Part shown: positions 8,423 through 51,273 of the stretch, piece by piece | Layout: each line of letters begins with the position of its first letter | Numbering within the stretch: position 1 is the first letter of the stretch | NCBI GenBank assembly: GCA_001724995.1 | Contig: MEFD01000014.1 | Coordinates: 186,001 to 250,000 of the forward strand | DNA: 64,000 nucleotides | Direction of reading: 5' to 3' | From: Rubrivivax sp. SCN 71-131 | GTDB taxonomy: Bacteria > Pseudomonadota > Gammaproteobacteria > Burkholderiales > Burkholderiaceae_C | Notes under the pieces: model-generated | Databases searched by the model: none | Told to the model about the DNA's origin: nothing | Seen by the model: only the letters and a program-made list of their open reading frames with translations | Made by a program: the position numbers and the translations under genes

Positions 8423-8550
8423 ATGTGCACTTCAATTCCTGTTTGCGCCAGCTCAAAGATGCATATTCTTGCCTGTAGCCACGTCGGCTACCCCGTTCTA
8501 AATCGGTATTCCAGTACCATAATGCGCATACACCTCGGCAGGAGAAGCTC
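8423..8550 (+). promoter_or_regulatory. Upstream leader/promoter region of the benzoyl-CoA reductase operon (AT-richer, contains a short palindrome)
   Basis: Locally AT-rich stretch directly before the first subunit; GTAGCC-ACGTC-GGCTAC inverted repeat at 8475-8491; GGAG ribosome-binding-like sequence just before the ATG at 8551. Confidence 0.4.
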
Positions 8551-9729
8551 ATGACCACCGCATCCCCCCCCGTGCTCAGCGGCGACCTCGACGAAATCTT
8601 CGAGTACTGCAATTCGCTGCGGCAAGGGCCCGTGCCCACCGACGACCAGCTGCCCGCGGGCTTCGTCGGCACCATCGGGCATTTCCCCGTCTACTTCCCC
8701 GAGGAGCTCGCGCACTCGGTGGGCCTGTTGCCGGTGAACATCCTCGGCGGCGGCAACAAGCTCGAGCTCAAGCACGCCGACGCGCACATGGGCTCGTTCA
8801 TCTGCTCGATCTGCCGCTCGACCACCGAGATGGGCCTGAACGGCTCGCTCAGCACGCTCAAGGGCTTCGTCACGCACCCGATCTGCGACGCCGCCAAGCA
8901 CCTCGCCGGCATCTGGGCGCGCAACTTCCCCGACCAGCTCGGCCAGATCCTCTACACGCCGCAGAACCCGAACTCGCCGGGGGCCGCGCGTTATGTGGCC
9001 GCCGAGTTCCAGCGGCTGCGCGCCGACATGGAGAAGCAGGCCGGCGTGAAGTCCGACGACGAGCGCCTGCTGGCCAGCATCCGCGTCTACAACGAGAACC
9101 GCCGCCTGCTGCGCGAGATGTACCGCATCCGCCGCGACGAGCCCTGGAAGCTCAGCTGCACCGAGTCCTACCTGCTGCTGCGTGCGCGCACCCGCATCTC
9201 CTGCGAGGAGCACAACCAGCTGCTCGCGCTCGCCCTGGCCGGCATCAAGGCGCGCAAGACCAGCCCGCAGGACAAGCCGCGCGTGGTCTTCGTCGGCGGC
9301 TTCTGCGAACAGCCGCCGCTCGAGATGCTCGAGGCCATCGACGACAACTGCTACGTCGTCGACGACGACCTGCTGGTGGGCCTGCGCTGGATCATCGACG
9401 ACGTGCCCGAGACCGGCGACCCGGTGTGGGCGCTGGCCGAGAGCTTCGTCGACCGCTCCGACGCGAGCCCCGTGCAGCACGACGAGCGCAAGTCCAAGGA
9501 GCAGTACCTGACGGACATGGTCGAGAAGTCCAAGGCCGACGCGGTCATCGTCACCGCCGCCAAGTTCTGCGAACCGGGCCTGGACGAACAGGTGGCGTGG
9601 TCCAAGCACCTCGACCACGTGCACGTGCCGCACCTCGTGCTCGAGTTCGAGGAGAAGATGAATTCCTTCGAGCAGATGGCGATGCAGCTCGAGACGTTCG
9701 CCGAATCGCTGCTGTTCACCAATGCCTGA
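8551..9729 (+). CDS. bzdN: Benzoyl-CoA reductase subunit, BcrC/BzdN-like
   Basis: 392 aa; ADAHMGSFICSICRSTTEMGLNGSL and HPICDAAKH Cys motifs, FVGGFCEQPPLEMLEAID; 2-hydroxyglutaryl-CoA dehydratase D-component family; first in a four-gene set with two ASKHA ATPases. The bzd versus bcr subtype is inferred from subunit sizes. Confidence 0.85.
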   Translation: MTTASPPVLSGDLDEIFEYCNSLRQGPVPTDDQLPAGFVGTIGHFPVYFPEELAHSVGLLPVNILGGGNKLELKHADAHMGSFICSICRSTTEMGLNGSLSTLKGFVTHPICDAAKHLAGIWARNFPDQLGQILYTPQNPNSPGAARYVAAEFQRLRADMEKQAGVKSDDERLLASIRVYNENRRLLREMYRIRRDEPWKLSCTESYLLLRARTRISCEEHNQLLALALAGIKARKTSPQDKPRVVFVGGFCEQPPLEMLEAIDDNCYVVDDDLLVGLRWIIDDVPETGDPVWALAESFVDRSDASPVQHDERKSKEQYLTDMVEKSKADAVIVTAAKFCEPGLDEQVAWSKHLDHVHVPHLVLEFEEKMNSFEQMAMQLETFAESLLFTNA

Positions 9730-9747
9730 GCTGACAGGAGACCGCAA

Positions 9748-11088
9748 ATGACGACTCAGAACACCCCGGCGCCCGCCGACGAGTTCAACGGCCACCTGGA
9801 AGGGCAGAAGCTCTTCAAGCAGTGGTACGCACAGCTGGAGGCCGGCCGCGAGCGCGGCGAGAAGGTCGCCAACGTCTTCGTGATGGGCAACGCCATCGAG
9901 ATCCTGCGCTGCTTCGACTTCAACCTCGTCTTCCCCGAGATCAACGCGCTGCAGACCGGCGTGCGCAAGGTCTCGGAGGACTACCTGCGCGACTCGGAGG
10001 ACTACGGCTACTCGCCCGACGTCTGCTCCTACGTGAAGGCCGACGTCGGCCTCATCCTGCGCGAGCAGAAGCACCCCGCCGGCCTGATCCCCAAGGCCGA
10101 CATCGCCATCATGTCCAACATGTGCGCGACCTTCATCAAGTGGGGCGAGATCTGGGAGCGCATGCTCAACACGCCCACCTTCTCGCTGGACCTGCCGGGG
10201 CAGCGCGCGGGCAACTGGAAGGTGCGTCCGGGTGACGCGCAGCACATCGCCGACGCGCAGTGGGTGGAGTCGCAGTTCCGCGACCTCATCGAGCGCTGCG
10301 AGAAGATCACCGGCAAGCGCTTCGACATCGACCGCCTCGCCGAGGTGCAGGACCGCGTCAACCGAATGGTCAAGCACTGGAACAACGTGATGGCGCTCAA
10401 CCGTGTCTCGCCGGCGCCGTACAACGCGATGCTCGACGGCCTGACCTACATCGGCATCATGAACGTCTACCGCGGCACCGAGGAGGGCGTGGAGTACATG
10501 CGCCGCCTCGAGGAGCAGCTGCGCGCCAAGGTCGCGCGCGGCGAGGGTCGCGTGCCCAACGAGAAGTTCCGCCTGCTGTTCTCGGGCACGCCCTGCTACG
10601 TCTCGATGCGCCGGCTGGTCGAGCTGTTCGAGAGCTGGGGCGGCGTCTTCGCCTACTCCGACTACCTCACCTTCGCGGCCGGCGGCATGGATGCCGGCGA
10701 GATGTCCTACGACACCTCGCGACCGCTCGAGAGCCTGGCCGAGGTCACGGCGCTGGCGGCGCACCGCGGCCTCTCCAACCAGTTCTTCGCGCACGAGCGC
10801 CTGGCGCAGCAGATCCGCGACTACGACGTCGACGGCATCGTCTTCCACGGCATCAAGAGCTGCCGCTTCGTGTCCTCGGGCATGGCCGACACGCGCAACT
10901 TCCTGACCAACAAGATGGGCACGCCGAGCCTCTACATCGAGTCCGACCTCATCGACCCGCGCTACTGGTCCGACGCGCAGATCAAGAACCGCGTCGACGC
11001 CTTCTTCGAGTCGCTCAAGCAACGCGGCGGCTCCGCACTCACGGCCGGCAAGGAAGCCGCCACCACCCATGAGGAGAGCCAATCATGA
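9748..11088 (+). CDS. bzdO: Benzoyl-CoA reductase subunit, BcrB/BzdO-like
   Basis: 446 aa; [76 protein letters not shown]. Confidence 0.86.
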
Positions 11089-11906
11089 AATATTTCGGCG
11101 GTGTCGACGTCGGATCCACGCAGACCAAGGCGGTGATCCTGGACGAGGAAGGCAAGATGGTCGGGCGCGCCCTGCTCGACATGGAAACCAGCATGATGAC
11201 GATCGCGCAGGACGCGTTCGACAAGGCGCTGGCCGACGCCGGCCTCACGGCCGACCAGGTCACGCGCATCGGCAGCACCGGCTACGGCCGCTACAACGTG
11301 ACCTTCGGCCACCAGCAGGTGACGGAGATCAGCTGCCACGCGCGCGGCGCCGTCTACCTGTTCCCGGGCACGCGCACGGTGATCGACATCGGCGGCCAGG
11401 ACACCAAGGCCATCGCCGTCAAGCCCGACGGCCAGGTCGCCGACTTCACGATGAACGACAAGTGCGCCGCGGGCACCGGGCGCTTCCTCGGCGCGGCGTC
11501 CTACGCGCTCGAACTGTCGCTGGGCGAACTCGGGGCGCTGGCGCTGAAGTCGCAGAACCCGGTGCGCATCACCACCACGTGCACGGTGTTCGCCGAGTCC
11601 GAGATCATCAGCCACCTGGCCAAGGGCATCCTGCCCGAGGACGTGCTGATGGGCGTGCACCAGGCGATCACGGCGCGCTGCATCTCGCTGGCCCGCCGCG
11701 TCGGCGTGAACGCGGAAGTCACCTTCACCGGGGGCGTGAGCCGCAACGTCGCGATGGTCAAGCTCATCGAGCAGGAAATCGAGATGCCGCTCAACGTCAG
11801 CCCGGACGCGCACTTCTGCGGCGCCCTCGGCGCGGCGCTGATGGCGCGCGACTACGTGTTGAACGGCGGCGAGACGGCCGAAGCCGCCGCGGCCGTGGCC
11901 GCCTGA
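11085..11906 (+). CDS. bzdP: Benzoyl-CoA reductase ATPase subunit (BadF/BadG/BcrA/BcrD family), BzdP/BcrD-like
   Basis: 273 aa ASKHA fold; [40 protein letters not shown] and [11 protein letters not shown] (conserved cluster-ligand Cys). ATGA overlap with the preceding gene. Confidence 0.85.
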
Positions 11907-11916
11907 GGAGATTGGC

Positions 11917-12906
11917 ATGAGCAAGATCTACGCTGCCGGTATCGACATCGGCTCCACCTACACCAAGGCCGTGCTGCTGGACAGCGACCGCAACGTCGCC
12001 GGCAAGGCGGTGCGTCGCACCGGCTTCAAGGTGCAGCAGGCGGCCGAACTCGTGTTCGAAGAACTGCTGAAGAACGCCGGCGTCGAGCCCGCGCAGGTGA
12101 CCTACGTCGGCGCCACCGGCTACGGCCGCTTCTCGGTGCCCTTCCGCCACGCCCAGATCACCGAGTTGACGGCGCACGCCCACGCCGCGGTGCAACTGTT
12201 CCCGGACACGCGCACGATCCTCGACATCGGCGGCCAGGACATCAAGGCGATCAAGGTCGACGGCGCGGGCCGCGTCAAGTCCTTCCGCCTCAACGACAAG
12301 TGTGCCGCCGGCACCGGCGCCTTCCTCGAGAAGACCGCGCGCTACCTGGGCCTGACGACGCAGGACATCGGCCCCTACGCCATCCGCTCGACCAACCCCA
12401 AGACCATCAGCAGCGTGTGCGCGGTGTTCGCCGAATCCGAGGTCATCAACCACCTCGCCAACGGCGTCCCGGCCGAGGACATCATGATGGGCGCAATGAT
12501 CTCGCTGGGCGGACGTGCGATCCAGCTCATGCGCCGCGTCGGCCTCGAGCCGGGCTACATGCTCACCGGCGGCATGACGCACAACGTGGCGATGATCAAG
12601 GCGCTGGAAACCGCGCTCAAGGCCCCCTTCAGCGTCGCCCCCGACGGCCTGGGCCAGCTCAACGGCGCCTACGGTGCGGCCTACCTCGGCCTGCGCCGCG
12701 CGCAGAAGCTGATCGCCGAAGGCAAGCCGATCCCGCCGACGGCGGCCCAGCTCGGAGGCGAGTCCGGCGCCAAGCCGATCCGCCGCTGGTCGGCGATCGG
12801 CGCCACGAAGCCGCGCTACGAGAGCAACAGTGCCAACAGCCCGACGACGGCGCAGTTCACGATCTCCAAGCGCGCGCCCGACCTCGCGCCAGCAACCGCC
12901 GCCTGA
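11917..12906 (+). CDS. bzdQ: Benzoyl-CoA reductase ATPase subunit (BadF/BadG/BcrA/BcrD family), BzdQ-like, with C-terminal extension
   Basis: 329 aa; [67 protein letters not shown]. Confidence 0.84.
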   Translation: MSKIYAAGIDIGSTYTKAVLLDSDRNVAGKAVRRTGFKVQQAAELVFEELLKNAGVEPAQVTYVGATGYGRFSVPFRHAQITELTAHAHAAVQLFPDTRTILDIGGQDIKAIKVDGAGRVKSFRLNDKCAAGTGAFLEKTARYLGLTTQDIGPYAIRSTNPKTISSVCAVFAESEVINHLANGVPAEDIMMGAMISLGGRAIQLMRRVGLEPGYMLTGGMTHNVAMIKALETALKAPFSVAPDGLGQLNGAYGAAYLGLRRAQKLIAEGKPIPPTAAQLGGESGAKPIRRWSAIGATKPRYESNSANSPTTAQFTISKRAPDLAPATAA

Positions 12907-12975
12907 GTGCCCCGCGGGCGCCCGGGCTGCCCGGGTGCCCGCAGCCGACGAACCCCAGACGAGAAGAGACCCAAG

Positions 12976-13419
12976 ATGACGGTCATTTCCGACTTCATGC
13001 AGCAGGACCACGTCGACATCGACGCCATCGCCGAGCGCGCCACGGCGGCCGCCGCGGCTGGAGACGCCACGACCATGGTGCGCGAGGGCGCCGAGTTTCT
13101 CAAACGCCTGCAACGGCACATCGACCAGGAGGAGCAGTTGCTCTTCCCGGCGTTCGAGGAGCGCACCGGCATGCGCGAGGGCGGCCCGAGCGTGCAGATG
13201 AAGATGGAGCACGACGACATGCGTCCCATCCTCGAGCAGATGCACGCCGCCGTCGCGGCCAAGGACGCCGCGGGCTACCAGAAGGCCTCCAAGGCCCTGT
13301 TCGACATCCTGGTGCCGCACAACCAGAAGGAAGAGCAGATGATGTACCCGATGCTCGACGACACCATGGGCGCCGACGCCGGCGCACTGCTCGCCGACGT
13401 GAAGGCCCTCGGCGCCTGA
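12976..13419 (+). CDS. Hemerythrin HHE-domain protein
   Basis: 147 aa; QQDHVDIDAI, LQRHIDQEEQLLFPAFEE, MEHDDMRPIL, LVPHNQKEEQMMYPML give the His/Glu di-iron pattern. ATG at 12976 within the 12907 ORF. Confidence 0.88.
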   Translation: MTVISDFMQQDHVDIDAIAERATAAAAAGDATTMVREGAEFLKRLQRHIDQEEQLLFPAFEERTGMREGGPSVQMKMEHDDMRPILEQMHAAVAAKDAAGYQKASKALFDILVPHNQKEEQMMYPMLDDTMGADAGALLADVKALGA

Positions 13420-36598: not shown

Positions 36599-37654
36599 TC
36601 AGCGCAGCGTCGCGTTGATCTTCTCCAGCGCCGCGCGACCTGGGCAGAGTTCGGCGTCCTGCAGCGCGTTGAGCGGGCGCTGCACGGTGTCCAGCGCCGC
36701 GTGCAGGTCGCGCGGTTGCGGGTCGACGTAGAGCAGGCCGGTGGCGATCTCGCCCTGCTCGGCCAGTTCCTGCACCAGGTTCATCGCCGCGCGGCGGTCG
36801 GTCGGGTCGTAGGCCTCGTACAGCTTGCGCAGGCGCATCACGCTGCCGTCGGCCTGCGGCAGCTCGAGCACTTCGTCGGGCGCGGGCTCGGCGATCACCT
36901 CCTTGGCGAGGTCGATGAAGTCGATGCGCCCCACCGCCTCGTTGTGCGCGCGCACATGGTCGTAGCTGCGCGTGCTCCCGGCGTGGTTGTTGAAGGCCAC
37001 GCAGGGGCTGATGACGTCGAGCAGCGCCGCGCCGCCGTGCGCGATCGCACCCTTGATCAGCGGCACGAGCTGCGCCTTGTCGCCGGAGAACCCACGTGCC
37101 ACGTAGGTCGCGCCGAGCTGCAAGGCCATGCCGATCAGGTCGACCGGGTTCTCGGTGTTCTCTACGCCCCTCTTGCTCTTGCTGCCGCGGTCGGCGGTGG
37201 CGCTGAACTGGCCCTTGGTGAGGCCGTAGACGCCGTTGTTCTCGACGATGTAGACCATGCGCACGCCGCGGCGCATGGCGTGCGCGAACTGGCCCAGGCC
37301 GATCGACGCCGAGTCGCCGTCGCCGCTGATGCCGAGGTAGAGCAGCTCGCGGTTGGCCAGCGCCGCGCCGGTGAGGACGCTGGGCATGCGGCCATGAACG
37401 GTGTTGAAGCCGTGGCTGGCGCCGAGGAAGTAGTCCGGCGTCTTGCTGCTGCAGCCAATGCCCGAGAGCTTGGCGACGCGGTGCGGCTGGATGTCCAGCT
37501 CCCAGCAGGCCTGCACGATGGCGGCGCTGACGCTGTCGTGGCCGCAGCCCGCGCACAGCGTGCTGACCTTGCCTTCGTAGTCGCGCCGCGTGTAGCCGAC
37601 CTTGTTGCGCGTCAGCGAGGGATGGTGCAGCCGCGGCTTGGCGATGTAGGTCAT
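36599..37654 (-). CDS. korB: 2-oxoacid:ferredoxin oxidoreductase beta (TPP-binding) subunit, KorB-like
   Basis: LCAGCGHDSVSAAIVQACWELDI, GIGCSSKTPDYFLGASHGFNTVHGRMPSVLTGAALANRELLYLGISGDGDSASIGLGQFAHAMRR. Confidence 0.9.
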   Translation of the reverse strand: MTYIAKPRLHHPSLTRNKVGYTRRDYEGKVSTLCAGCGHDSVSAAIVQACWELDIQPHRVAKLSGIGCSSKTPDYFLGASHGFNTVHGRMPSVLTGAALANRELLYLGISGDGDSASIGLGQFAHAMRRGVRMVYIVENNGVYGLTKGQFSATADRGSKSKRGVENTENPVDLIGMALQLGATYVARGFSGDKAQLVPLIKGAIAHGGAALLDVISPCVAFNNHAGSTRSYDHVRAHNEAVGRIDFIDLAKEVIAEPAPDEVLELPQADGSVMRLRKLYEAYDPTDRRAAMNLVQELAEQGEIATGLLYVDPQPRDLHAALDTVQRPLNALQDAELCPGRAALEKINATLR

Positions 37655-39510
37655 GTCGTCGTCCTTTCGCGGCGCGGCGCGACGGCCAGCGCGTGCACGT
37701 GCTCGACGATGGCCTCGGTGATGAAGCGCGCGGTGATCGGCGTGCCGTCGAAGTGCAGCACCTTGACGAGGCGCTCGGGGTCGATCTCGAGCTCGCCCAC
37801 GAGCAGCGCGCGCATCTGCGCGTCGCGGTTCTGCTCGACGACGAAGACATGGTCGTGGCCGGCGATGAAGTCGGCCACCGCCTGCGGGAAGGGGAAGGCC
37901 CTGAGCCGCATCGCGTCGAGGTGGATGCCCTGCGCCGCGAGCCGCGCCAGCGCCTCCTCCATCGCCGGCGTCGTGCTGCCGAAGTGGATCACGCCCAGGC
38001 GCGTCTGCTTCTCGGCGCTCTTCAGCTCGGGCGGCGGCACGAGCTCGGCGGCGGTGGCGAACTTCTTCAGCAGGCGCTGCACGTTGTAGACGTAGTCGCT
38101 CCCGGCCTCGCTGTAGACGGCGTAGGGGTTGCGCGTGGTGCCGCGCGTGAAGTAGCTGCCCTTGCTCGGGTGCGTGCCCGGCAGCGTGCGCCAGGGGATG
38201 CCGTCGCCGTCGACGTCCTTGTAGCGGCCGAAGTCGAAGCCGGCCTCGAGCTGCTCGGCCGACAGCAGCTTGCCGCGGTCCATGCGCCGCGCGTCGTCCC
38301 AGGCAAAGGGCTTGCACAGGCGCTGGTTCATGCCGATGTCGAGATCGGTCATCACGAACACCGGCGTCTGCAGGCGATCGGCCAGATCGAGCGCGGTCGC
38401 CGTGTGCTCGAAGCACTCGGCCGGATCCTGCGGCAGCAGCATCACGTGCTTGGTGTCGCCGTGGCTGGCGTAGGCGCAGCTGAGGAGGTCGGCCTGCTGC
38501 GTGCGCGTGGGCATGCCGGTGCTCGGGCCGCCGCGCTGCACGTTGATGATCGTCACCGGGATCTCGGCGAAGTAGGCCAGGCCGATGAACTCGGTCATCA
38601 GGCTCACGCCCGGGCCGCTGGTGGCGGTGAAGGCGCGCGCGCCGTTCCAGCCCGCGCCGGTGACGATACCGATCGCGGCGATCTCGTCCTCGGCCTGCAC
38701 GATGGCGTAGCGCGCTTCACCGGACTGTGGGTCGTGCCGCAGCCGCTTGCAGTAGCTCGTGAAGGCCTCGGCCACCGAGGTGCTGGGGGTCAGCGGATAC
38801 CAGGCGCAGACCGTCGCGCCGCCGTAGACGGCGCCGAGCGCGGCGGCGCTGTTGCCGTCGACGAAGATGCGCTCGCCCACCGTGTCGGCGCGCCGCACCT
38901 TGAGGCCGATGCCGGGGTGGCGCGGCGGCTGCAGGTGGTCCTTGGCGAAGCCGCGGCCGGACTGCAGCGCGCGCAGGTTGCTCTCCAGCAGCCGCTCCTT
39001 GCCCTTGTACTGCTCGGCCAGCAGTTCCTCGAGCACCTGCGCGTCGATGTCCATCAGCGCCGAGAGCGCGCCCAGCACCATGATGTTCTTGAACAGCGTG
39101 CGCTGGCGCGGGTCCTCGTAGGTGGCGTTGCAGATCGCCGTCACCGGCATGCCGATCACCGTGATGTCGCGACGGAACGCGCTCTCGGGCATGGGGCGCG
39201 TGCTGTCGTAGAACAGGTAGCCGCCGGGCTCGATCTCGGCGAGGTCGCGCTCCCAGGTCTGCGGGTTCATCGCCACCATCATGTCGACGCCGCCGCGCCG
39301 GCCCAGCCACCCCTCCTGCGAGACGCGCACCTCGTACCAGGTCGGCAGGCCCTGGATGTTGCTCGGGAAGATGTTGCGCGGGCTCACCGGCACGCCGGTG
39401 CGCAGGATGGCCTTGGCGAAGAGCTCGTTGGCCGAGGCCGAGCCGGAGCCGTTGACGTTGGCGAACTTGACGACGAAGTCGTTGACGGCCTCGATGCGGT
39501 TGATCGTCAT
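37651..39510 (-). CDS. korA: 2-oxoacid:ferredoxin oxidoreductase alpha (gamma-alpha fusion) subunit, KorA-like
   Basis: N-terminal gamma domain (GSASANELFAKAILRTGVPVSPRNIFPSNIQGLPTWYEVRVS) followed by the alpha pyrimidine-binding domain (YPLTPSTSVAEAFTSYCK...TSGPGVSLMTEFIGLAYFAEIPVTIINVQRGGPSTGMPTRTQQADLL). ATGA overlap with korC. Confidence 0.9.
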   Translation of the reverse strand: MTINRIEAVNDFVVKFANVNGSGSASANELFAKAILRTGVPVSPRNIFPSNIQGLPTWYEVRVSQEGWLGRRGGVDMMVAMNPQTWERDLAEIEPGGYLFYDSTRPMPESAFRRDITVIGMPVTAICNATYEDPRQRTLFKNIMVLGALSALMDIDAQVLEELLAEQYKGKERLLESNLRALQSGRGFAKDHLQPPRHPGIGLKVRRADTVGERIFVDGNSAAALGAVYGGATVCAWYPLTPSTSVAEAFTSYCKRLRHDPQSGEARYAIVQAEDEIAAIGIVTGAGWNGARAFTATSGPGVSLMTEFIGLAYFAEIPVTIINVQRGGPSTGMPTRTQQADLLSCAYASHGDTKHVMLLPQDPAECFEHTATALDLADRLQTPVFVMTDLDIGMNQRLCKPFAWDDARRMDRGKLLSAEQLEAGFDFGRYKDVDGDGIPWRTLPGTHPSKGSYFTRGTTRNPYAVYSEAGSDYVYNVQRLLKKFATAAELVPPPELKSAEKQTRLGVIHFGSTTPAMEEALARLAAQGIHLDAMRLRAFPFPQAVADFIAGHDHVFVVEQNRDAQMRALLVGELEIDPERLVKVLHFDGTPITARFITEAIVEHVHALAVAPRRERTTT

Positions 39511-41345
39511 GTACCGGCTCCCACGCGCTTGTTCGCGGGCGTGCTGTCGCGGCAGGCCGGGCCTGCCTTGGGGGTGATGAGCAGGAACTTCTGCATGTCC
39601 CAGGCGCCGGTTGGGCAGCGCTCGGCGCACAGGCTGCAGTGCAGGCAGACGTCCTCGTCCTTGACCATCACGCGCGTGGTCTTCAGCGGCCCGCTGACAT
39701 AGAGCGCCTGGTCGAGGTTTCCCGCCGGCGCCTTCAGCCGCGTGCGCAGATCGGCCTCGTCGCCGTTGTGCGTGAAGGTGATGCAGTCCATCGGGCAGAT
39801 GTCGACGCAGGCGTCGCACTCGATGCACAAACGGTCGGTGAATACTGTCTGCACGTCGCAGTTGAGGCAGCGCTGCGCCTCCTTCCACGCCGTCTCGAGG
39901 TCGAAGCCGAGCTCGACCTCGACCTGCATGCTGGTGAGCGTCTGCTCGGCCGGCGCCCAGGGCACCTTGAAGCGCATGTCGTTCGTCGGCGCGTTGTCGT
40001 AGCTCCACTCGTGGATGCCCATCTTCTGCGACACGAGGTTGGTGTAGGGCGGCGGGCGCTGCCTCACGTCCTCATCGTGGCAGAAGCGGTCGATCGACAC
40101 CGCGGCCTCGTGCGCCTGCGCGACCGCCGTGATGATGTTCTTCGGCCCGAGCGCCGCGTCACCGGCGAAGAAGACGCGCGGCAGCGTCGACTGGAAGGTC
40201 GTCTCGTCGAGCACGGGCAGGCCCCAGCGGTTGAACGCGATGCCGGCGTCGCGCTCGATCCACGGGAAGGCGTTCTCCTGGCCGACGGCGATCAGCACCT
40301 CGTCGCAGGGCAGCTCGACGTCGGGCGCGCCGGTGGGCACGAGGCTGCGCTGCCCTTTCCCGTCGTAGCGCGCCTCGACGATCTGAAAGCGCATCGCCAC
40401 CAGCCGCCCGCCCGCGTGCACGAAGGCCAGCGGCACGTGGAAGTCGAGGATGGGGATGCCTTCGTGCATCGCGTCCTCCTTCTCCCAGGGGCTGGCCTTC
40501 ATCTCCGCGAAGCCGCTGCGCACGACGACCTTGACGTCCTCGGCACCCAGGCGCCGCGCGCTACGGCAGCAGTCCATCGCGGTGTTGCCGCCGCCGAGCA
40601 CGAGCACGCGCTTGCCGACCGACTTCACGTGGCCGAAGGAGACCGAGGCCAGCCACTCGATGCCGACGTGGATGTGCTCGGCCGCCTCCTGCCGGCCCGG
40701 GATCTTCAGATCGCGCCCGCGCGGCGCGCCGCTGCCCACGAACACGGCGTCCCAGTCCTCGGCCAGCAGCGCCTTCAAGGAGTCGATGCGCTGGCCCGCG
40801 CGCAGCTCGACGCCCAGGCCCAGGATGAGACCGACCTCCTCGTCGATCACGCCCTCGGGCAGGCGAAAGCGCGGGATCTGGCTCCACATGAAGCCGCCGG
40901 CCTTCCTCTCCGCCTCGTACACGGTGACGGCGTAGCCCTGCAAGGCCAGGTCGCGCGCGACGGTGAGGCTGGCCGGCCCGCCGCCGACGCAGGCCACGCG
41001 CTTGCCGTTGCGCGGTTCGGGGCGCGGGATCATCGCGCGGATCTCCTGCCCCTTGAAGTCGGCGGCGACGCGCTTCAAGCGGCAGATCGCCACCGGCTCG
41101 GGCTTGCCGAGGTTCTTCTCCTCGACGCGCGAGCGGCGGCACGCCGGCTCGCAGGGCCGGTCGCAGGTGCGACCGAGGATGCCCGGGAAGACGTTGGCGA
41201 CCCAGTTGACCATGTAGGCGGCGTCATAGCGCCCCTGGGCGATCAGCCGGATGTATTCCGGCACGGGGGTGTGGGCGGGGCAGGCCCACTGACAATCCAC
41301 GACCTTGTGGAAGTAGGCCGGATCGGCCACGTTCGTCGGCTGCAC
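39507..41345 (-). CDS. korC: FAD-dependent NAD(P)H oxidoreductase with C-terminal 2x[4Fe-4S] domain, KorC-like (GltD-type fold)
   Basis: CQWACPAHTPVPEYI, CDRPCEPACRR, GGGPASLTVARDLALQGYAVTVYEA, LVLGGGNTAMDCCRSARRLGAEDVKVV; CIECDACVDICPMDC and CLHCSLCAERCPTGAW clusters; translationally coupled to korA-korB. Confidence 0.85.
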   Translation of the reverse strand: MQPTNVADPAYFHKVVDCQWACPAHTPVPEYIRLIAQGRYDAAYMVNWVANVFPGILGRTCDRPCEPACRRSRVEEKNLGKPEPVAICRLKRVAADFKGQEIRAMIPRPEPRNGKRVACVGGGPASLTVARDLALQGYAVTVYEAERKAGGFMWSQIPRFRLPEGVIDEEVGLILGLGVELRAGQRIDSLKALLAEDWDAVFVGSGAPRGRDLKIPGRQEAAEHIHVGIEWLASVSFGHVKSVGKRVLVLGGGNTAMDCCRSARRLGAEDVKVVVRSGFAEMKASPWEKEDAMHEGIPILDFHVPLAFVHAGGRLVAMRFQIVEARYDGKGQRSLVPTGAPDVELPCDEVLIAVGQENAFPWIERDAGIAFNRWGLPVLDETTFQSTLPRVFFAGDAALGPKNIITAVAQAHEAAVSIDRFCHDEDVRQRPPPYTNLVSQKMGIHEWSYDNAPTNDMRFKVPWAPAEQTLTSMQVEVELGFDLETAWKEAQRCLNCDVQTVFTDRLCIECDACVDICPMDCITFTHNGDEADLRTRLKAPAGNLDQALYVSGPLKTTRVMVKDEDVCLHCSLCAERCPTGAWDMQKFLLITPKAGPACRDSTPANKRVGAGT

Positions 41346-45834: not shown

Positions 45835-47475
45835 TCACCCCTCCTGCCGCAGCCGAAAGCGCTGCAGCTTGCCCGTCTCCGTGCGCGGCAGCGAGTCGCG
45901 GAACTCGATGGCACGCGGGTACTTGTAGGCGGCGATGCCCTGCTTGCAGAAGTCCTGCAGCTCCTTCACGAGTGCCGCGCTGCCCTCGTGCCCGGGCTCG
46001 AGCACGACGAAGGCCTTGGCGATCTGCCCGCGCGCCTCGTCGGGAACGCCGACGACGCCGCACTCGGCCACCGCCGGGTGCTGCAGCAGCACGCTCTCGA
46101 TCTCGGGCCCGGCGATGTTGTAGCCGCCGGTGATGATCATGTCGTCGGTACGCGCCTGGTAGACGTAGTAGCCGTCCTCGTCGACGAGGTAGGCGTCGCC
46201 GGTGAGGTTCCAGCCGTTCTGCACGTACACCGCCTGGCGCTCGTCGGCGAGGTACTTGCAGCCCGTGGGCCCCTTGATGGCCAGGCGACCGACCTGGCCC
46301 GGCGGCAGCGGCCGGCCCTCGTCGTCCAGGATGCAGGCGCGGTAGCCCGGCACCGGGACGCCGGTGGCGCCGGGCTTGGCGTGCGCCTCGTCGGCGCTGA
46401 TGAAGATGTGGAAGAGCTCGGTGGAGCCGATGCCGTCGATGATCTCGATGCCGGTGGCGTCCTTCCACAGCTTGCGCGTGGCCGCGGGCAGAGCCTCGCC
46501 GGCGCTCACGCACTTGCGCAGCGAGGACAGGTCCGGCCGCGGCGACATCGTCGGCAGCGCCAGCGCGATCGCCCGGTACGAGGTCGGTGCGGTGAAGCAG
46601 ACGGTCACGCGGTGGCGCTCGAGGGTGGCGGGCAGCGAATCCGGCGAGGTGCGCTCGATCAGCACCATTGATGCGCCGACCGAGAGCGGGAACATCAGCA
46701 GGCCGCCCAGGCCGAAGGTGAAGGCCAGCGGCGGGCTGCCGAAGAAGCGGTCCTCGGCGGTGGCGCGCAGCACGTGCCGCGGCCAACAGCGGCAGCCGGC
46801 GATGACGTCGCGGTGGAAGTGCATCGTACCCTTGGGCACGCCGGTGGTGCCCGAGGTGAAGGCCATCAGCGCCGTATCGTCGGCGGCGGTGTCCACGCTC
46901 GCGAACGCCGCCGGCTGCGCCGCCATCTCGGCCTCGAGCGAACCCTCGCCCTCGTCGCCGTTGAAGAGCAGCGGCGCGCCGAGTTGCGGGCACTCGGGCC
47001 GCACCGCCAGCAGCGCATCGGCGATGCGTGCGTCGCACAGCGCGTGCGTGATCTGCGCCTTGTCGATGATGGCCTTCAGCTCGCGCTCGCGCAGCAGCGG
47101 CATCGATCCCACTGCGATGCCGCCGGCCTTCATCACGCCGAGCCAGCAGGCCGCGTACATCGGCGTGTTGGCCCCGCGCAGCAGCACGCGGTTGCCGCTC
47201 ACCAGCCCGAGGCGGTTGACGAGCACGCCGGCGATGCGGCAGGCGCGCGCGTGCAGCTCGGCGTAGGTCCAGGAGAAGGCCTGGCCATCGCGCTCGCCGA
47301 TGAGCGCGATGCGCTGGCCATGCCCGCGCTCGATCCAGCGGTCCAGCAGCTCGGCGGCGACGTTCAGGCGCTCGGGCAACTGCAGGTCGGGCCCCTCGAA
47401 GATGAACTCGGGCAGGGCCGAAGCTGGCGGCAGGTTGTCGCGGGCGAAGGTGTCGAGGTGCGCGGTCGTGGCCAT
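45835..47475 (-). CDS. Aryl-CoA ligase, benzoate/2-aminobenzoate-CoA ligase family (AMP-binding)
   Basis: MAFTSGTTGVPKGTMHFHRDVIAGC, DGIGSTELFHIFISA, YVYQARTDDMIITGGYNIAGPEIESVLLQHPAV, PRTETGKLQRFRLR. Start at 47475. Confidence 0.85.
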   Translation of the reverse strand: MATTAHLDTFARDNLPPASALPEFIFEGPDLQLPERLNVAAELLDRWIERGHGQRIALIGERDGQAFSWTYAELHARACRIAGVLVNRLGLVSGNRVLLRGANTPMYAACWLGVMKAGGIAVGSMPLLRERELKAIIDKAQITHALCDARIADALLAVRPECPQLGAPLLFNGDEGEGSLEAEMAAQPAAFASVDTAADDTALMAFTSGTTGVPKGTMHFHRDVIAGCRCWPRHVLRATAEDRFFGSPPLAFTFGLGGLLMFPLSVGASMVLIERTSPDSLPATLERHRVTVCFTAPTSYRAIALALPTMSPRPDLSSLRKCVSAGEALPAATRKLWKDATGIEIIDGIGSTELFHIFISADEAHAKPGATGVPVPGYRACILDDEGRPLPPGQVGRLAIKGPTGCKYLADERQAVYVQNGWNLTGDAYLVDEDGYYVYQARTDDMIITGGYNIAGPEIESVLLQHPAVAECGVVGVPDEARGQIAKAFVVLEPGHEGSAALVKELQDFCKQGIAAYKYPRAIEFRDSLPRTETGKLQRFRLRQEG

Positions 47476-47640
47476 GGGGGACGTTCCTGCGGGGCAAGGG
47501 CGGCGATGCCGGTGGAGCGGCGCCGGGAAAGAGCCGATGCCAACGCCATTCTTTGAAGATACATTTTTGCCGTCACTTGTTGGAAACCCTTCCAGGGTGG
47601 GTGCGGCATGCGCGGCATGCGCGGCGGCCTGGGGCGTCCC

Positions 47641-47646
47641 TACAAT
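47641..47646 (+). promoter_or_regulatory. Putative -10 box (TACAAT) for the TRAP permease genes
   Basis: TACAATCGTG about 95 nt before dctQ. The same TAnAATCGT core occurs at 13572 and 57620 upstream of other genes. Confidence 0.35.
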
Positions 47647-47739
47647 CGTGCGCCATCGCAATCGGCCGAACGCCATCGGCGCGCCCTGCCGAGCGGGGGC
47701 CCCGGGCAGCGACGCCATCCCAGCCGGAGCTCCTCCCCG

Positions 47740-48357
47740 ATGCAAGCACTGCTGAGCCTCTCACGCGCCATCGACCGCGTGAACGCCATTGTCGGCCGCT
47801 GGGCGATCTGGCTGATCATGGCCGCGACGGCCATCAGCGCCCTCAACGCGGTCGTGCGCAAGCTCTTCAACTACAGCTCGAACGCCTATCTCGAGGTGCA
47901 GTGGTACCTGTTCGCGTGGTCCTTCCTCATCGCCGCGGGCTACACCCTGCTGCACGGCGAACACGTGCGCATCGACGTGCTCAACCACCGGCTCCCCAAG
48001 AAGGCGCGCGTGTGGATCGACATCCTCGGCTACGGCCTCTTCCTGACGCCGCTGTGCCTGGTCATGCTCTACCTCGGCACGCCGCTGCTGATCGAGCGCT
48101 TCGTCTCCGGCGAGATGTCGCCCAACCCCGGCGGGCTCGTGCGCTGGCCGGTGTGGGTGGCGGTGCCGCTGGGCTTTGCGCTGCTGCTGCTGCAGGGCTG
48201 GTCGGAGCTGATCAAGTGCATCGCCTTCCTGCGCGGCCAGGGACCTGACCCGACCGAGTCGCGCAAGCGCAAGACCGACGAAGAGGAGCTTGCCGAGGCC
48301 CTGCGCCGCGAGCAGGCGGCCGCGGGCGGCCGCGCCCCGACCCCGCTCGCCCCCTGA
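47740..48357 (+). CDS. TRAP transporter small permease (DctQ family)
   Basis: MQALLSLSRAIDRVNAIVGRWAIWLIMAATAISALNAVVRKLFNYSSNAYLEVQWYLFAWSFLIAAGYTLLHGEHVRIDVL. Confidence 0.9.
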   Translation: MQALLSLSRAIDRVNAIVGRWAIWLIMAATAISALNAVVRKLFNYSSNAYLEVQWYLFAWSFLIAAGYTLLHGEHVRIDVLNHRLPKKARVWIDILGYGLFLTPLCLVMLYLGTPLLIERFVSGEMSPNPGGLVRWPVWVAVPLGFALLLLQGWSELIKCIAFLRGQGPDPTESRKRKTDEEELAEALRREQAAAGGRAPTPLAP

Positions 48358-48377
48358 GCACGAGGCCCGGGCCGATC

Positions 48378-50105
48378 ATGGAGTTCATCGCCGTGAATTT
48401 CGCCCCCGTCATGTTCGGGGGCCTCATCGTCTTCCTCATCCTCGGCTTTCCGGTGGCGTTCAGCCTCGGGGCCTGCGGCCTGCTGTTCGGTGTCGTCGGC
48501 GTCGCGCTCGACGTCTTTCCCTCGGCCATCCTGGCCGTGCTGCCGCTGCGCCTCATCGGCATCATGAGCAACGAGACGCTGCTCGCGGTTCCGTTCTTCA
48601 CCCTGATGGGCCTGATCCTCGAGCGCAGCGGCATGGCCGAGGACCTGCTCGAGACCGTCGGCCAGGTCTTCGGTCCGCTGCGCGGCGGCCTGGCGCTGGC
48701 GGTGGTGCTGGTCGGTGCGATGCTCGCCGCGACCACCGGCGTCGTCGCCGCGTCGGTGATCTCGATGGGCCTGATCTCGATGCCCATCATGCTGCGCTAC
48801 GGCTATTCGCGCAGCCTCTCCAGCGGCGTCATCGCCGCTTCGGGAACGCTGGCGCAGATCATCCCGCCCTCGCTGGTGCTGATCGTGCTTGCCGACCAGA
48901 TGGGCAGGAGCGTGGGCGACATGTACAAGGGCGCCTTCATCCCCGGCTTCGCGCTGATGGGCCTCTACATCCTGTGGGTGGTGGTGCTGGCGGTCTTCAA
49001 GCCCGCCGCGGTGCCCGCGCTGCCGCCCGAGGCGCGCACCTTCCGCGACGCCAAGGGCCACACCGGCTACACCTCGCTGTCGGTTCTTGCCCTGCTCTCC
49101 GGGGCCGTGGGCTACACCCTCGGCGCGCACATGGAGGCAGTGCACAGCTGGTGGCTCGGCGAGGTGGTCGACTCGGTGCCGACCGACGAGCGCATCGTGG
49201 TGGCGATGTGCGGCGGCGTCTTCGTCGCCTGGCTCATCGCCGTCATCAACTCCCTCGCCAGGCTGCACCTGCTCTCGAAGCTGGCCGAGCGCGTGACCTT
49301 CGTGCTGATCCCGCCGCTGCTGCTGATCTTCCTCGTCCTCGGCACGATCTTCCTCGGCGTGGCCACGCCGACCGAGGGCGGCGCCATGGGCGCAATGGGC
49401 GCGCTCATCATGGCCGTGCTGCGGCGGCGCCTGGGCTGGGCCCTGCTGAAGCAGGCGCTGGCGACGACGACCAAGCTCTCCTCCTTCGTGCTCTTCATCC
49501 TCATCGGCGCCACCGTCTTCAGCATGGTCTTCCAGGCCGCCGACGGCCCGGTCTGGGTCGAGCATCTGCTCGCCAAGCTGCCCGGCGGCCAGATCGGCTT
49601 CCTGATCTTCGTGAACGTCATGATCTTCTTCCTGGCGTTCTTCCTCGACTTCTTCGAGCTTTCGTTCATCGTCGTGCCGGTGCTCGCCCCGATCGCCGAG
49701 AAGATGGGCATCGACCTGGTCTGGTTCGGCGTGCTGCTGGCGGTGAACATGCAGACGTCGTTCATGCATCCGCCCTTCGGCTTCGCGCTCTTCTACCTGC
49801 GCTCGGTGGCGCCGGACAAGCCCTACGTCGATGCGGTGACGGGCAGGACGATGGCGCCGGTGACGACGATGCAGATCTACAAGGGCGCGATCCCCTTCCT
49901 GCTCCTGCAACTGGCGATGGTGGCAGTCCTGATCGCCTTCCCCGGCCTCGTCACCCGCGACCTCGACAAGCCGTCCAACGTCGACATGGAGGCCGCCGGC
50001 ACGCAGATCCTGCAGAACCTGGAAGGCGCCCCGGGCTTCGGCAACCCGGCGGAAAGCGACGCCGACGCGCCGACCGGGGCGGACACGAAGAACCCGTTCG
50101 AGTAG
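48378..50105 (+). CDS. TRAP transporter large permease (DctM family)
   Basis: FLILGFPVAFSLGACGLLFGV...FFTLMGLILERSGMAEDLLETVGQVFGPLRGGLALAVVLVGAMLAATTGVVAASVISMGLIS; GVATPTEGGAMGAMGALI. Confidence 0.93.
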   Translation: MEFIAVNFAPVMFGGLIVFLILGFPVAFSLGACGLLFGVVGVALDVFPSAILAVLPLRLIGIMSNETLLAVPFFTLMGLILERSGMAEDLLETVGQVFGPLRGGLALAVVLVGAMLAATTGVVAASVISMGLISMPIMLRYGYSRSLSSGVIAASGTLAQIIPPSLVLIVLADQMGRSVGDMYKGAFIPGFALMGLYILWVVVLAVFKPAAVPALPPEARTFRDAKGHTGYTSLSVLALLSGAVGYTLGAHMEAVHSWWLGEVVDSVPTDERIVVAMCGGVFVAWLIAVINSLARLHLLSKLAERVTFVLIPPLLLIFLVLGTIFLGVATPTEGGAMGAMGALIMAVLRRRLGWALLKQALATTTKLSSFVLFILIGATVFSMVFQAADGPVWVEHLLAKLPGGQIGFLIFVNVMIFFLAFFLDFFELSFIVVPVLAPIAEKMGIDLVWFGVLLAVNMQTSFMHPPFGFALFYLRSVAPDKPYVDAVTGRTMAPVTTMQIYKGAIPFLLLQLAMVAVLIAFPGLVTRDLDKPSNVDMEAAGTQILQNLEGAPGFGNPAESDADAPTGADTKNPFE

Positions 50106-50122
50106 GTCGAAGAACCAAAAAA

Positions 50123-50149
50123 AAGGCCGCGCAACGGTGCCGCGGCCTT
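50123..50149. terminator. Bidirectional terminator between the convergent dctM and dctP genes
   Basis: AAGGCCGCG (50123-50131) / CGCGGCCTT (50141-50149), preceded by an A8 tract and followed by TTG TTTC. Confidence 0.75.
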
Positions 50150-50190
50150 GTTTCCCGGACGGGCCGCCCGACGCGGCCCGGGTCGGGTTC

Positions 50191-51273
50191 TCAGATCTTC
50201 AGCGCCGCCATCGTCTGCGTGAACTGCAGTTCGGAGACGCGGTTCCAGAGGATCTGGTCGCGCTGGAAGGCACGCATGTCGTCGAAGACGCGCTTGAAGA
50301 CCTCGGACTTCGCGCGGTGCTCCTCGTACACCTCCTGCGCCGCCTTGAAGCCGGCCTCGACGACGCTCTTCGGGAAGGGCTTGAACTGGATGCCGCTGGC
50401 GACGATGCGCTTGAGCGCCGGCGGGTTCAGCGCCAGGTACTTGGTCGTGCCGTCGTTGTAGGCGACGTCGGCCGCGGCGCGCACGATGGCCTGGTTCTCC
50501 GGCGACAGCTTGGCGAAGGCCTTCCTGTTGATGAAGAACTCGAGGTCGGCACCGCCCTCCCACCAGGCGTTGTAGTAGTAGAACTTGGTGACCTTGTTGT
50601 AGCCGAGCTTCTCGTCGTCGTAAGGGCCGACGAACTCCGCAGCGTCGAGCGTGCCCTTCTCCAGCGCCTGGTAGACCTCGCCGCCGGGCATGTTCTGCGC
50701 CACGACGCCGAGCTTGGCCATCGACTCGCCGAAGACGCCGCCGCCCAGGCGCATCTTCAGGCCCTTGAGGTCCTGCGGCGACTTGATCTCCTTGCGATAC
50801 CAGCCGCCCATCTGCGTGCCCGTGTTGAGTGCGCTCAGGGTGAAGAAGTTGTACTTCTCGAACACCTCGTTGAGCAGCTTGCGGCCGTTGCCCTGCTCCT
50901 TCCAGGCGAGGTTCTGGTTCGCCGTCAGCCCGAACGGGGCCGCGCAGCTGAGGGCGAACACCGGGTCCTTGCCGGTGTAGTAGTAGGCCGCGGTCTCGCC
51001 CATCTCGAGCGCGTCGTCATTGAGCGCATCGACGATGCCGAACGGCGGCACGAGCTCGCCGGCCGCGTGCACCGAGATCTCGAACTTGCCGCCGGAGAGC
51101 GCCTTCACGGTCTCGGAGAATTTCACGGCGCAGCCGTGCAGCGTCTCCAGGGCCTTCGGGAAGCTGGTGGCCAGACGCCAGCGAACGGCGGCCTGAGCGT
51201 GCACTGCGGGCGCGGCACCGGCGGCCAGGACACCGGCCACGCCGGCATGCTTGATGAGGGAACGGCGATCCAT
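50191..51273 (-). CDS. TRAP transporter substrate-binding protein (DctP family, TakP/2-oxoacid- or lactate-binding-like)
   Basis: Tat-like N-terminus MDRRSLIKHAGVAGVLAAGAAPAVHAQ; GEMGETAAYYYTGKDPVFAL-like core, AAEFVGPYDDEKLGYNKVTKFYYYNAWWEGGADLEFFINRKAF. Confidence 0.88.
   Translation of the reverse strand: MDRRSLIKHAGVAGVLAAGAAPAVHAQAAVRWRLATSFPKALETLHGCAVKFSETVKALSGGKFEISVHAAGELVPPFGIVDALNDDALEMGETAAYYYTGKDPVFALSCAAPFGLTANQNLAWKEQGNGRKLLNEVFEKYNFFTLSALNTGTQMGGWYRKEIKSPQDLKGLKMRLGGGVFGESMAKLGVVAQNMPGGEVYQALEKGTLDAAEFVGPYDDEKLGYNKVTKFYYYNAWWEGGADLEFFINRKAFAKLSPENQAIVRAAADVAYNDGTTKYLALNPPALKRIVASGIQFKPFPKSVVEAGFKAAQEVYEEHRAKSEVFKRVFDDMRAFQRDQILWNRVSELQFTQTMAALKI

Follow-up and report, generated by a model that had tools for sequence, protein, structure and literature searches.

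A class I aryl-CoA reductase operon near the Mbd type, encoded with a hemerythrin-like protein in Rubrivivax sp. SCN 71-131

The class I benzoyl-CoA reductases are very sensitive to oxygen, and to our knowledge Bcr, Bzd and Mbd are the types that have been investigated. The 3-methylbenzoyl-CoA reductase MbdNOPQ of Thauera chlorobenzoica and Aromatoleum (PDB 9g87, 9gai) is built from four subunits that include two short ATPases, and two short ATPases are also found in BzdNOPQ of Aromatoleum sp. CIB (PDB 8s02), whereas one ATPase of the Thauera-type BcrCBAD enzyme (BcrA) is about 440 amino acids (aa) long and the bcr set is linked to had-oah-dch and ferredoxin genes. The present work concerns an operon at positions 8551 to 13419 of a 64,000-nucleotide stretch of the genome of Rubrivivax sp. 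SCN 71-131 (contig MEFD01000014.1, positions 186,001 to 250,000; the whole stretch is referred to below as the window), which encodes four reductase subunits, N, O, Q and P, and a hemerythrin-like protein. As judged from its sequences, this four-subunit set is a class I (ATP-dependent) aryl-CoA reductase belonging to an uncharacterised branch near Mbd. We consider it likely that it serves as a second class I reductase for benzoyl-CoA or a close ring-substituted analogue, that it feeds the lower pathway encoded on another contig of the same genome (C43), that the hemerythrin has a role connected with oxygen, and that in many relatives the operon is under an FNR switch.

The operon and its place among class I reductases

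The features of the operon, all on the + strand, are the following.

8551..9729, +, N subunit, an MbdN/BcrC-like HGD-D protein of 392 aa (PF06050, 228 bits, cut-off 28.4; MbdN 9g87_B, E 6.5e-111), the predicted electron-transfer subunit of the catalytic dimer
9748..11088, +, O subunit, an MbdO/BcrB-like HGD-D protein of 446 aa (PF06050, 225 bits, cut-off 28.4; MbdO 9g87_A, E 6.2e-114), the predicted substrate-binding subunit with an aqua-[4Fe-4S] cluster
11085..11906, +, Q subunit, an ASKHA ATPase of 273 aa with paired cluster cysteines (MbdQ 9gai_D, E 6.5e-104)
11917..12906, +, P subunit, an ASKHA ATPase of 329 aa with paired cluster cysteines (MbdP 9gai_C, E 7.8e-72)
12976..13419, +, hemerythrin-like protein with an HHE domain, 147 aa when read from the ATG at 12976, its best start; last gene of the operon (PF01814, 71 bits)
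8443..8456, +, degenerate FNR-like site TTGCGCCAGCTCAA, placed 108 bp upstream of the start codon of N, with matches at 7 of 10 consensus positions

The four reductase open reading frames (ORFs) and their quoted motifs are present as an initial annotation of this DNA had given them, and its emphasis on two short ATPases, unlike the BcrA of the same genome (443 aa), was well placed. Both ATPases belong to the BcrAD_BadFG family (PF01869; 234 and 199 bits against a cut-off of 31.5), so that two HGD-D subunits and two non-identical BcrAD_BadFG ATPases, the composition of a class I enzyme, stand together in one operon. N, O, Q and P follow one another at spacings of 18, -4 and 10 bp, the hemerythrin gene begins after a further 69 bp, all five ORFs are intact, and the ratio of nonsynonymous to synonymous substitution rates (dN/dS) of the operon genes, measured against relatives at 95-96% identity, is 0.03-0.23. 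The spacings and the dN/dS values therefore identify N, O, Q and P, far beyond chance, as functional genes under purifying selection in a single operon. The operon is flanked by recombination and nuclease genes on one side and a peptidase gene on the other (recognised by eye), and a plasmid collection held nothing but distant matches to it, of at most 25% identity.

Among solved structures the first match of each subunit is its Mbd counterpart (MbdN, MbdO, MbdQ and MbdP), with Bzd and HadBC far behind. The AlphaFold model of N (predicted template modelling score, pTM, 0.86) matches the Thauera Mbd chain 9gai_B with a TM score of 0.89, and that of O (pTM 0.83) matches chain 9gai_E with a TM score of 0.87. 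Identity to Mbd is 44% for O, 47% for N and 64% for Q (against the Aromatoleum MbdQ), compared with 33% (O) and 38% (N) to Bcr and 24-26% (N and O) to Bzd. The mbd operon differs from the window set, whose subunit order is N-O-Q-P; it also encodes a ligase and a lower pathway of its own, and a hemerythrin was not observed in it. The window subunits fall short of every NCBIfam equivalog cut-off for bcr and bzd: the scores are 110 for bzdN (cut-off 454), 115 for bzdO (449) and 168 bits or less for bzdQ (380), bcrA, bcrB and bcrD score about half of their cut-offs or less, and bcrC scores 288 against 421. Those models would consequently leave members of the branch unnamed as benzoyl-CoA reductases.

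One scan of genome contigs returned 55 loci, which include a tight proteobacterial clade with O identities of 72-96% to the window, two Ktedonobacteria loci at 62-66% and the Aromatoleum mbd locus at 43-45%; of 400 sampled Chloroflexota genomes, 20 had homologues, at 34-64% identity. Dozens of genomes of Burkholderiales and Rhodocyclaceae carry the branch, as do Chloroflexota. In trees of both O and N, the phylogenetic check that the initial annotation had proposed, the window clade and Ktedonobacteria group together with a support of 100, and their sister is a group of other Chloroflexota sequences that includes Mbd (98-99 with O, and with N 98 or 95 on the branches that correspond), with Bcr outside this superclade and Bzd far off; the supports are SH-aLRT values from quick trees with some long branches, and the deep order is less certain. 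Forcing the window branch and Bzd into one clade is disfavoured by the approximately unbiased test (p = 0.031).

A Bzd-type assignment, which had initially been favoured, is rejected by the identities, the NCBIfam cut-offs, the trees and the cofactor ligands described below; of the Mbd type named as its fallback, the greater nearness has stood, since the best matches and the superclade are those of Mbd, but the branch is separate from that of Mbd itself. A Bcr-type assignment was likewise rejected, on the unreached cut-offs and on ATPases of 273 and 329 aa as against about 440. No description of the branch was found in the open-access literature searched, and its novelty is therefore provisional.

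When residues are mapped on the BzdNO structure (PMC11971306), Glu64, Cys93, Tyr95, Cys126 and Cys372 of O are invariant in the clade, as are the retained proximal cysteines of N (Cys85, Cys112 and Cys340), so that the catalytic subunits carry the cluster cysteines and the catalytic Glu of class I enzymes, and the ligands of the aqua-[4Fe-4S] cluster in O are shared with Bzd. The position of BzdO His131 is occupied by Phe in the window O, as in Bcr and most Mbd sequences, and by Tyr in Ktedonobacteria. Among the six double-cubane cysteines of BzdN (Cys36, Cys73, Cys100, Cys263, Cys293 and Cys327), the equivalents of 36, 263 and 293 are absent from the window N. Conversely, Cys20, Cys252 and Cys267 of N are conserved in Mbd and Bcr as well as across the new branch (Cys20 is missing in two Chloroflexota rows of the alignment), as are the proximal cysteines. 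Bzd has none of the three, and HadC, the sequence used for which stops short of Cys20, lacks Cys252 and Cys267. It may be speculated that these three cysteines replace the distal double-cubane ligands of BzdN and provide a different way of binding a second sub-cluster. An extra cluster ligand was considered in Cys88 of the N motif FICSIC and dropped, the equivalent BzdN Cys76 not being among the listed ligands.

Pathway context and co-occurring reductases

The window showed no recognisable ferredoxin, dch, had or oah gene, which bears out the earlier remark that such genes are not adjacent to the operon. The rest of the genome, surveyed in stretches, supplied what that annotation had suggested looking for: contig C43 carries a complete bcr-type cluster, had-oah-dch-bcrCBAD-ferredoxin, with 2-oxoacid oxidoreductase genes (oah 625 bits against a cut-off of 464, the one over-cut-off oah of the genome; bcrA, 710 bits against 578), contig C13 carries a benzoate-CoA ligase (794 bits) beside genes that appear by eye to be boxB and boxC, and FdxA ferredoxins are encoded on contigs C15 and C16. 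The partners missing from the window are thus encoded elsewhere in the genome, and the window operon is a second reductase beside bcr. A nirK gene was not found in the genome.

In relatives the pathway genes stand next to the operon. N-O-Q-P adjoin oah, and mostly also had and dch, in the Ktedonobacteria loci L082, L085 and L212, in the other Chloroflexota loci L213-L219, L224 and L225, and in L053. In L053 had and oah pass their equivalog cut-offs, and dch has the dienoyl-CoA hydratase model as its best match, below cut-off; the had, oah and dch genes of L085 match their models below cut-off only, and their exact reactions are less certain. The contig L053, from a metagenome-assembled genome (MAG) labelled Myxococcota, falls inside the proteobacterial branch and may therefore be mis-binned or transferred. 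Because the orthologues of the window genes sit with had, oah and dch in these relatives, a ring-reducing role is well supported on comparative grounds, and it is chiefly on this gene context that the role rests.

Forty-seven carriers of the new branch were examined for other reductases, the Rubrivivax genome included and Aromatoleum excluded; most are MAGs, so that absences carry little weight. A bcrB gene was found in 28 of the 47, bzdO in 7 and neither in 12. Of these 12, eight have an over-cut-off oah; in two, which are Ktedonobacteria, the cluster itself includes a distant oah; and two have nothing, so that 45 of the 47 have bcrB, bzdO or an Oah homologue in a pathway setting. In an even sample of the order bcrB occurs in 3 of 3 carriers, and among near relatives in 6 of 7 (Fisher p about 1e-4 or below in each sample, kinship being ignored). 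Each carrier that has an over-cut-off oah has one copy, with the exception of Burkholderiales 70-64 (G186), which also has an mbd-type cluster, and this single copy suggests that both reductases probably feed one lower pathway. A BcrB search had pointed to the new reductase as the sole class I enzyme of Ca. Desulfobacillus denitrificans, a suggestion withdrawn when two bzdO copies were found.

The window also contains, 23 kb from the operon (36599-41345, - strand), genes for a 2-oxoacid:acceptor oxidoreductase alpha/beta pair and an NAD(P)-binding subunit resembling GltD, which might supply reduced ferredoxin. A gene of the benzoate-CoA ligase family at 45835-47475, which lies at the TIGR02262 cut-off (375.2 against 375.25 bits), adjoins apparent tripartite ATP-independent periplasmic (TRAP) transporter genes (45835-51273 in all), and together they possibly take up and activate an aromatic acid.

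Hemerythrin, ferredoxin and the FNR box

Two conserved features on which the initial annotation was silent, the hemerythrin gene inside its own coordinates and an FNR box in relatives, connect the operon with oxygen. Among the 46 loci with enough downstream sequence, a hemerythrin lies at most 2.5 kb downstream of P in 35, an FdxA-type ferredoxin within the same distance in 25, and one or both in 42. The candidate diiron ligands H12, H48, E52, H79, H115 and E119 are invariant in 35 hemerythrin sequences, and the 12976-13419 product has both the HHE domain and these ligands. Among the Chloroflexota operons, L085, L214, L215 and L224 likewise have a hemerythrin nearby. A perfect FNR box, TTGATN4ATCAA, is found 59-92 bp before N in 15 related loci; these are 15 of only 17 such boxes in 883 kb of the loci, a background by which 0.016 would be expected upstream of N, and while the 15 loci, being related, are not 15 independent events, the four central bases of the box vary among them. 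The operon thus looks oxygen-regulated in relatives. The FNR-like site of the window lies roughly where relatives have the perfect box and, at its 7 matching positions, is not significant alone; since the site is degenerate in this lineage, oxygen control in the Rubrivivax genome would follow only by extension from its relatives.

Other oxygen-related genes were seen near related clusters. A hemerythrin (PF01814) stands beside a bzd-like dch-had-oah cluster (L168 3856-4374, G183), so that the hemerythrin link may be wider than the new branch. A rubrerythrin-like protein (recognised by eye; L005 9065-9604 and L167 4861-5397, 53% identical between the two genomes), whose gene adjoins 2-oxoacid oxidoreductase genes beside a bcr cluster, is possibly another oxygen-protection partner.

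Proposed function and competing explanations

By analogy with the Bzd and Mbd enzymes, the Q and P ATPases would hold a common bridging [4Fe-4S] cluster and, spending ATP, would drive electrons from ferredoxin through the Fe-S cluster of N to the aqua-[4Fe-4S] cluster in O, from which the ring would receive one hydrogen atom and one electron. The cyclohexadienoyl-CoA so formed would be handed on to Dch, Had and Oah, encoded with bcr on contig C43. The hemerythrin of the operon might bind or remove O2, or aid Fe-S cluster repair, on behalf of the oxygen-labile reductase, and in many relatives an FNR-type regulator would turn the operon on as O2 falls. The operon is, then, probably that of a benzoyl-CoA reductase isoenzyme which is controlled by FNR, associated with a hemerythrin and suited to transitions between oxic and anoxic conditions.

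A broader proposal, to which we give somewhat less than even credence, is that the branch is a separate class I benzoyl-CoA reductase lineage, most diverse in Chloroflexota, and that in Proteobacteria it has turned into a stand-alone isoenzyme, switched by FNR and encoded together with a hemerythrin that binds O2. Alongside the standard enzyme, it would let facultative aerobes, Ramlibacter included, sustain ring reduction when oxygen is low or fluctuates. With the linked hemerythrin and the FNR box, how biological Birch reduction copes with changing oxygen becomes directly testable in isolates such as Ramlibacter, and the compact five-gene operon is convenient for heterologous expression.

Several observations weigh against the function proposed at the head of this section. 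The Rhodocyclaceae relatives have the ferredoxin without the hemerythrin; no FdxA ferredoxin gene adjoins the operon in the window; the lineage to which the window belongs has a degenerate FNR site; and two of the 47 carriers, which look incomplete, are without any other pathway gene. The replacement of BzdO His131 by Phe means, moreover, that the mechanism is transferred from related, not identical, active sites.

The candidate substrates would be benzoyl-, 3-methyl- or halobenzoyl-CoA, and it is possible, if rather doubtful, that the enzyme acts on meta-substituted benzoyl-CoAs (3-methyl-, 3-chloro- or fluoro-), as Mbd does, and widens the substrate range beside a bcr enzyme for benzoyl-CoA. 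The identity of N, O and Q to Mbd, the closest characterised enzyme, is consistent with this, as are the nearly constant company of a primary bcr or bzd enzyme and the benzoate-CoA ligase-family and TRAP transporter genes 33-38 kb away in the window. Known systems for methylated substrates, however, bring a dedicated ligase, Dch, Had and Oah (PMC4424350, PMC4268860), none of which is linked here, and the single oah copy of the carriers argues in the same direction: a common lower pathway would favour benzoyl-CoA, or halogenated analogues that lose their halide, which these objections leave untouched, over methylated substrates. Residue 374 of O, Phe in the window and Thr in Mbd, gives no hint of a roomier pocket, a weak point.

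That the set is instead an (R)-2-hydroxyacyl-CoA dehydratase or another non-aromatic member of the superfamily is very improbable, and on this point the class I reading of the initial annotation is borne out: after Mbd, the fold matches continue with HadB and HadC, and (R)-2-hydroxyisocaproyl-CoA dehydratase (HadBC; PDB 3o3m) shares the superfamily fold and three cluster cysteines per subunit, but identity to it is 25-29% as against 44-47% to Mbd, its activator is homodimeric where the window operon encodes two different ATPases, it consumes no electron, and its genomic setting is unlike that of the window genes, which co-occur with benzoyl-CoA pathway genes and have orthologues within had/oah/dch clusters. 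Equally improbable is a decaying copy retained in working form by relatives only, to which the degenerate FNR-type site and the missing ferredoxin gene would point, given the five intact ORFs, the low dN/dS values and the retention of every catalytic residue.

Further combinations of reductases were observed in passing. The genome of Burkholderiales 70-64 holds four sets of class I type (L154 5980-10229 and L155 10333-14510 among its loci). Besides bcr and the new branch it has a set of mbd type, accompanied by a dch-had-oah of its own, and a fourth set, L154, that forms another deep branch, with L226 as its sister in the trees and acyl-CoA dehydrogenase- and CoA-transferase-like genes as neighbours. 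In a Rhodoferax MAG (palsa_997, G168; L169 11548-19567), bcr-type had-oah-dch genes are followed not by bcr but by a gene of the aldehyde ferredoxin oxidoreductase family (PF02730/PF01314), with ferredoxin-like and Hdr-like genes as well, a set that resembles the genes of a class II (Bam) reductase, in a betaproteobacterium.

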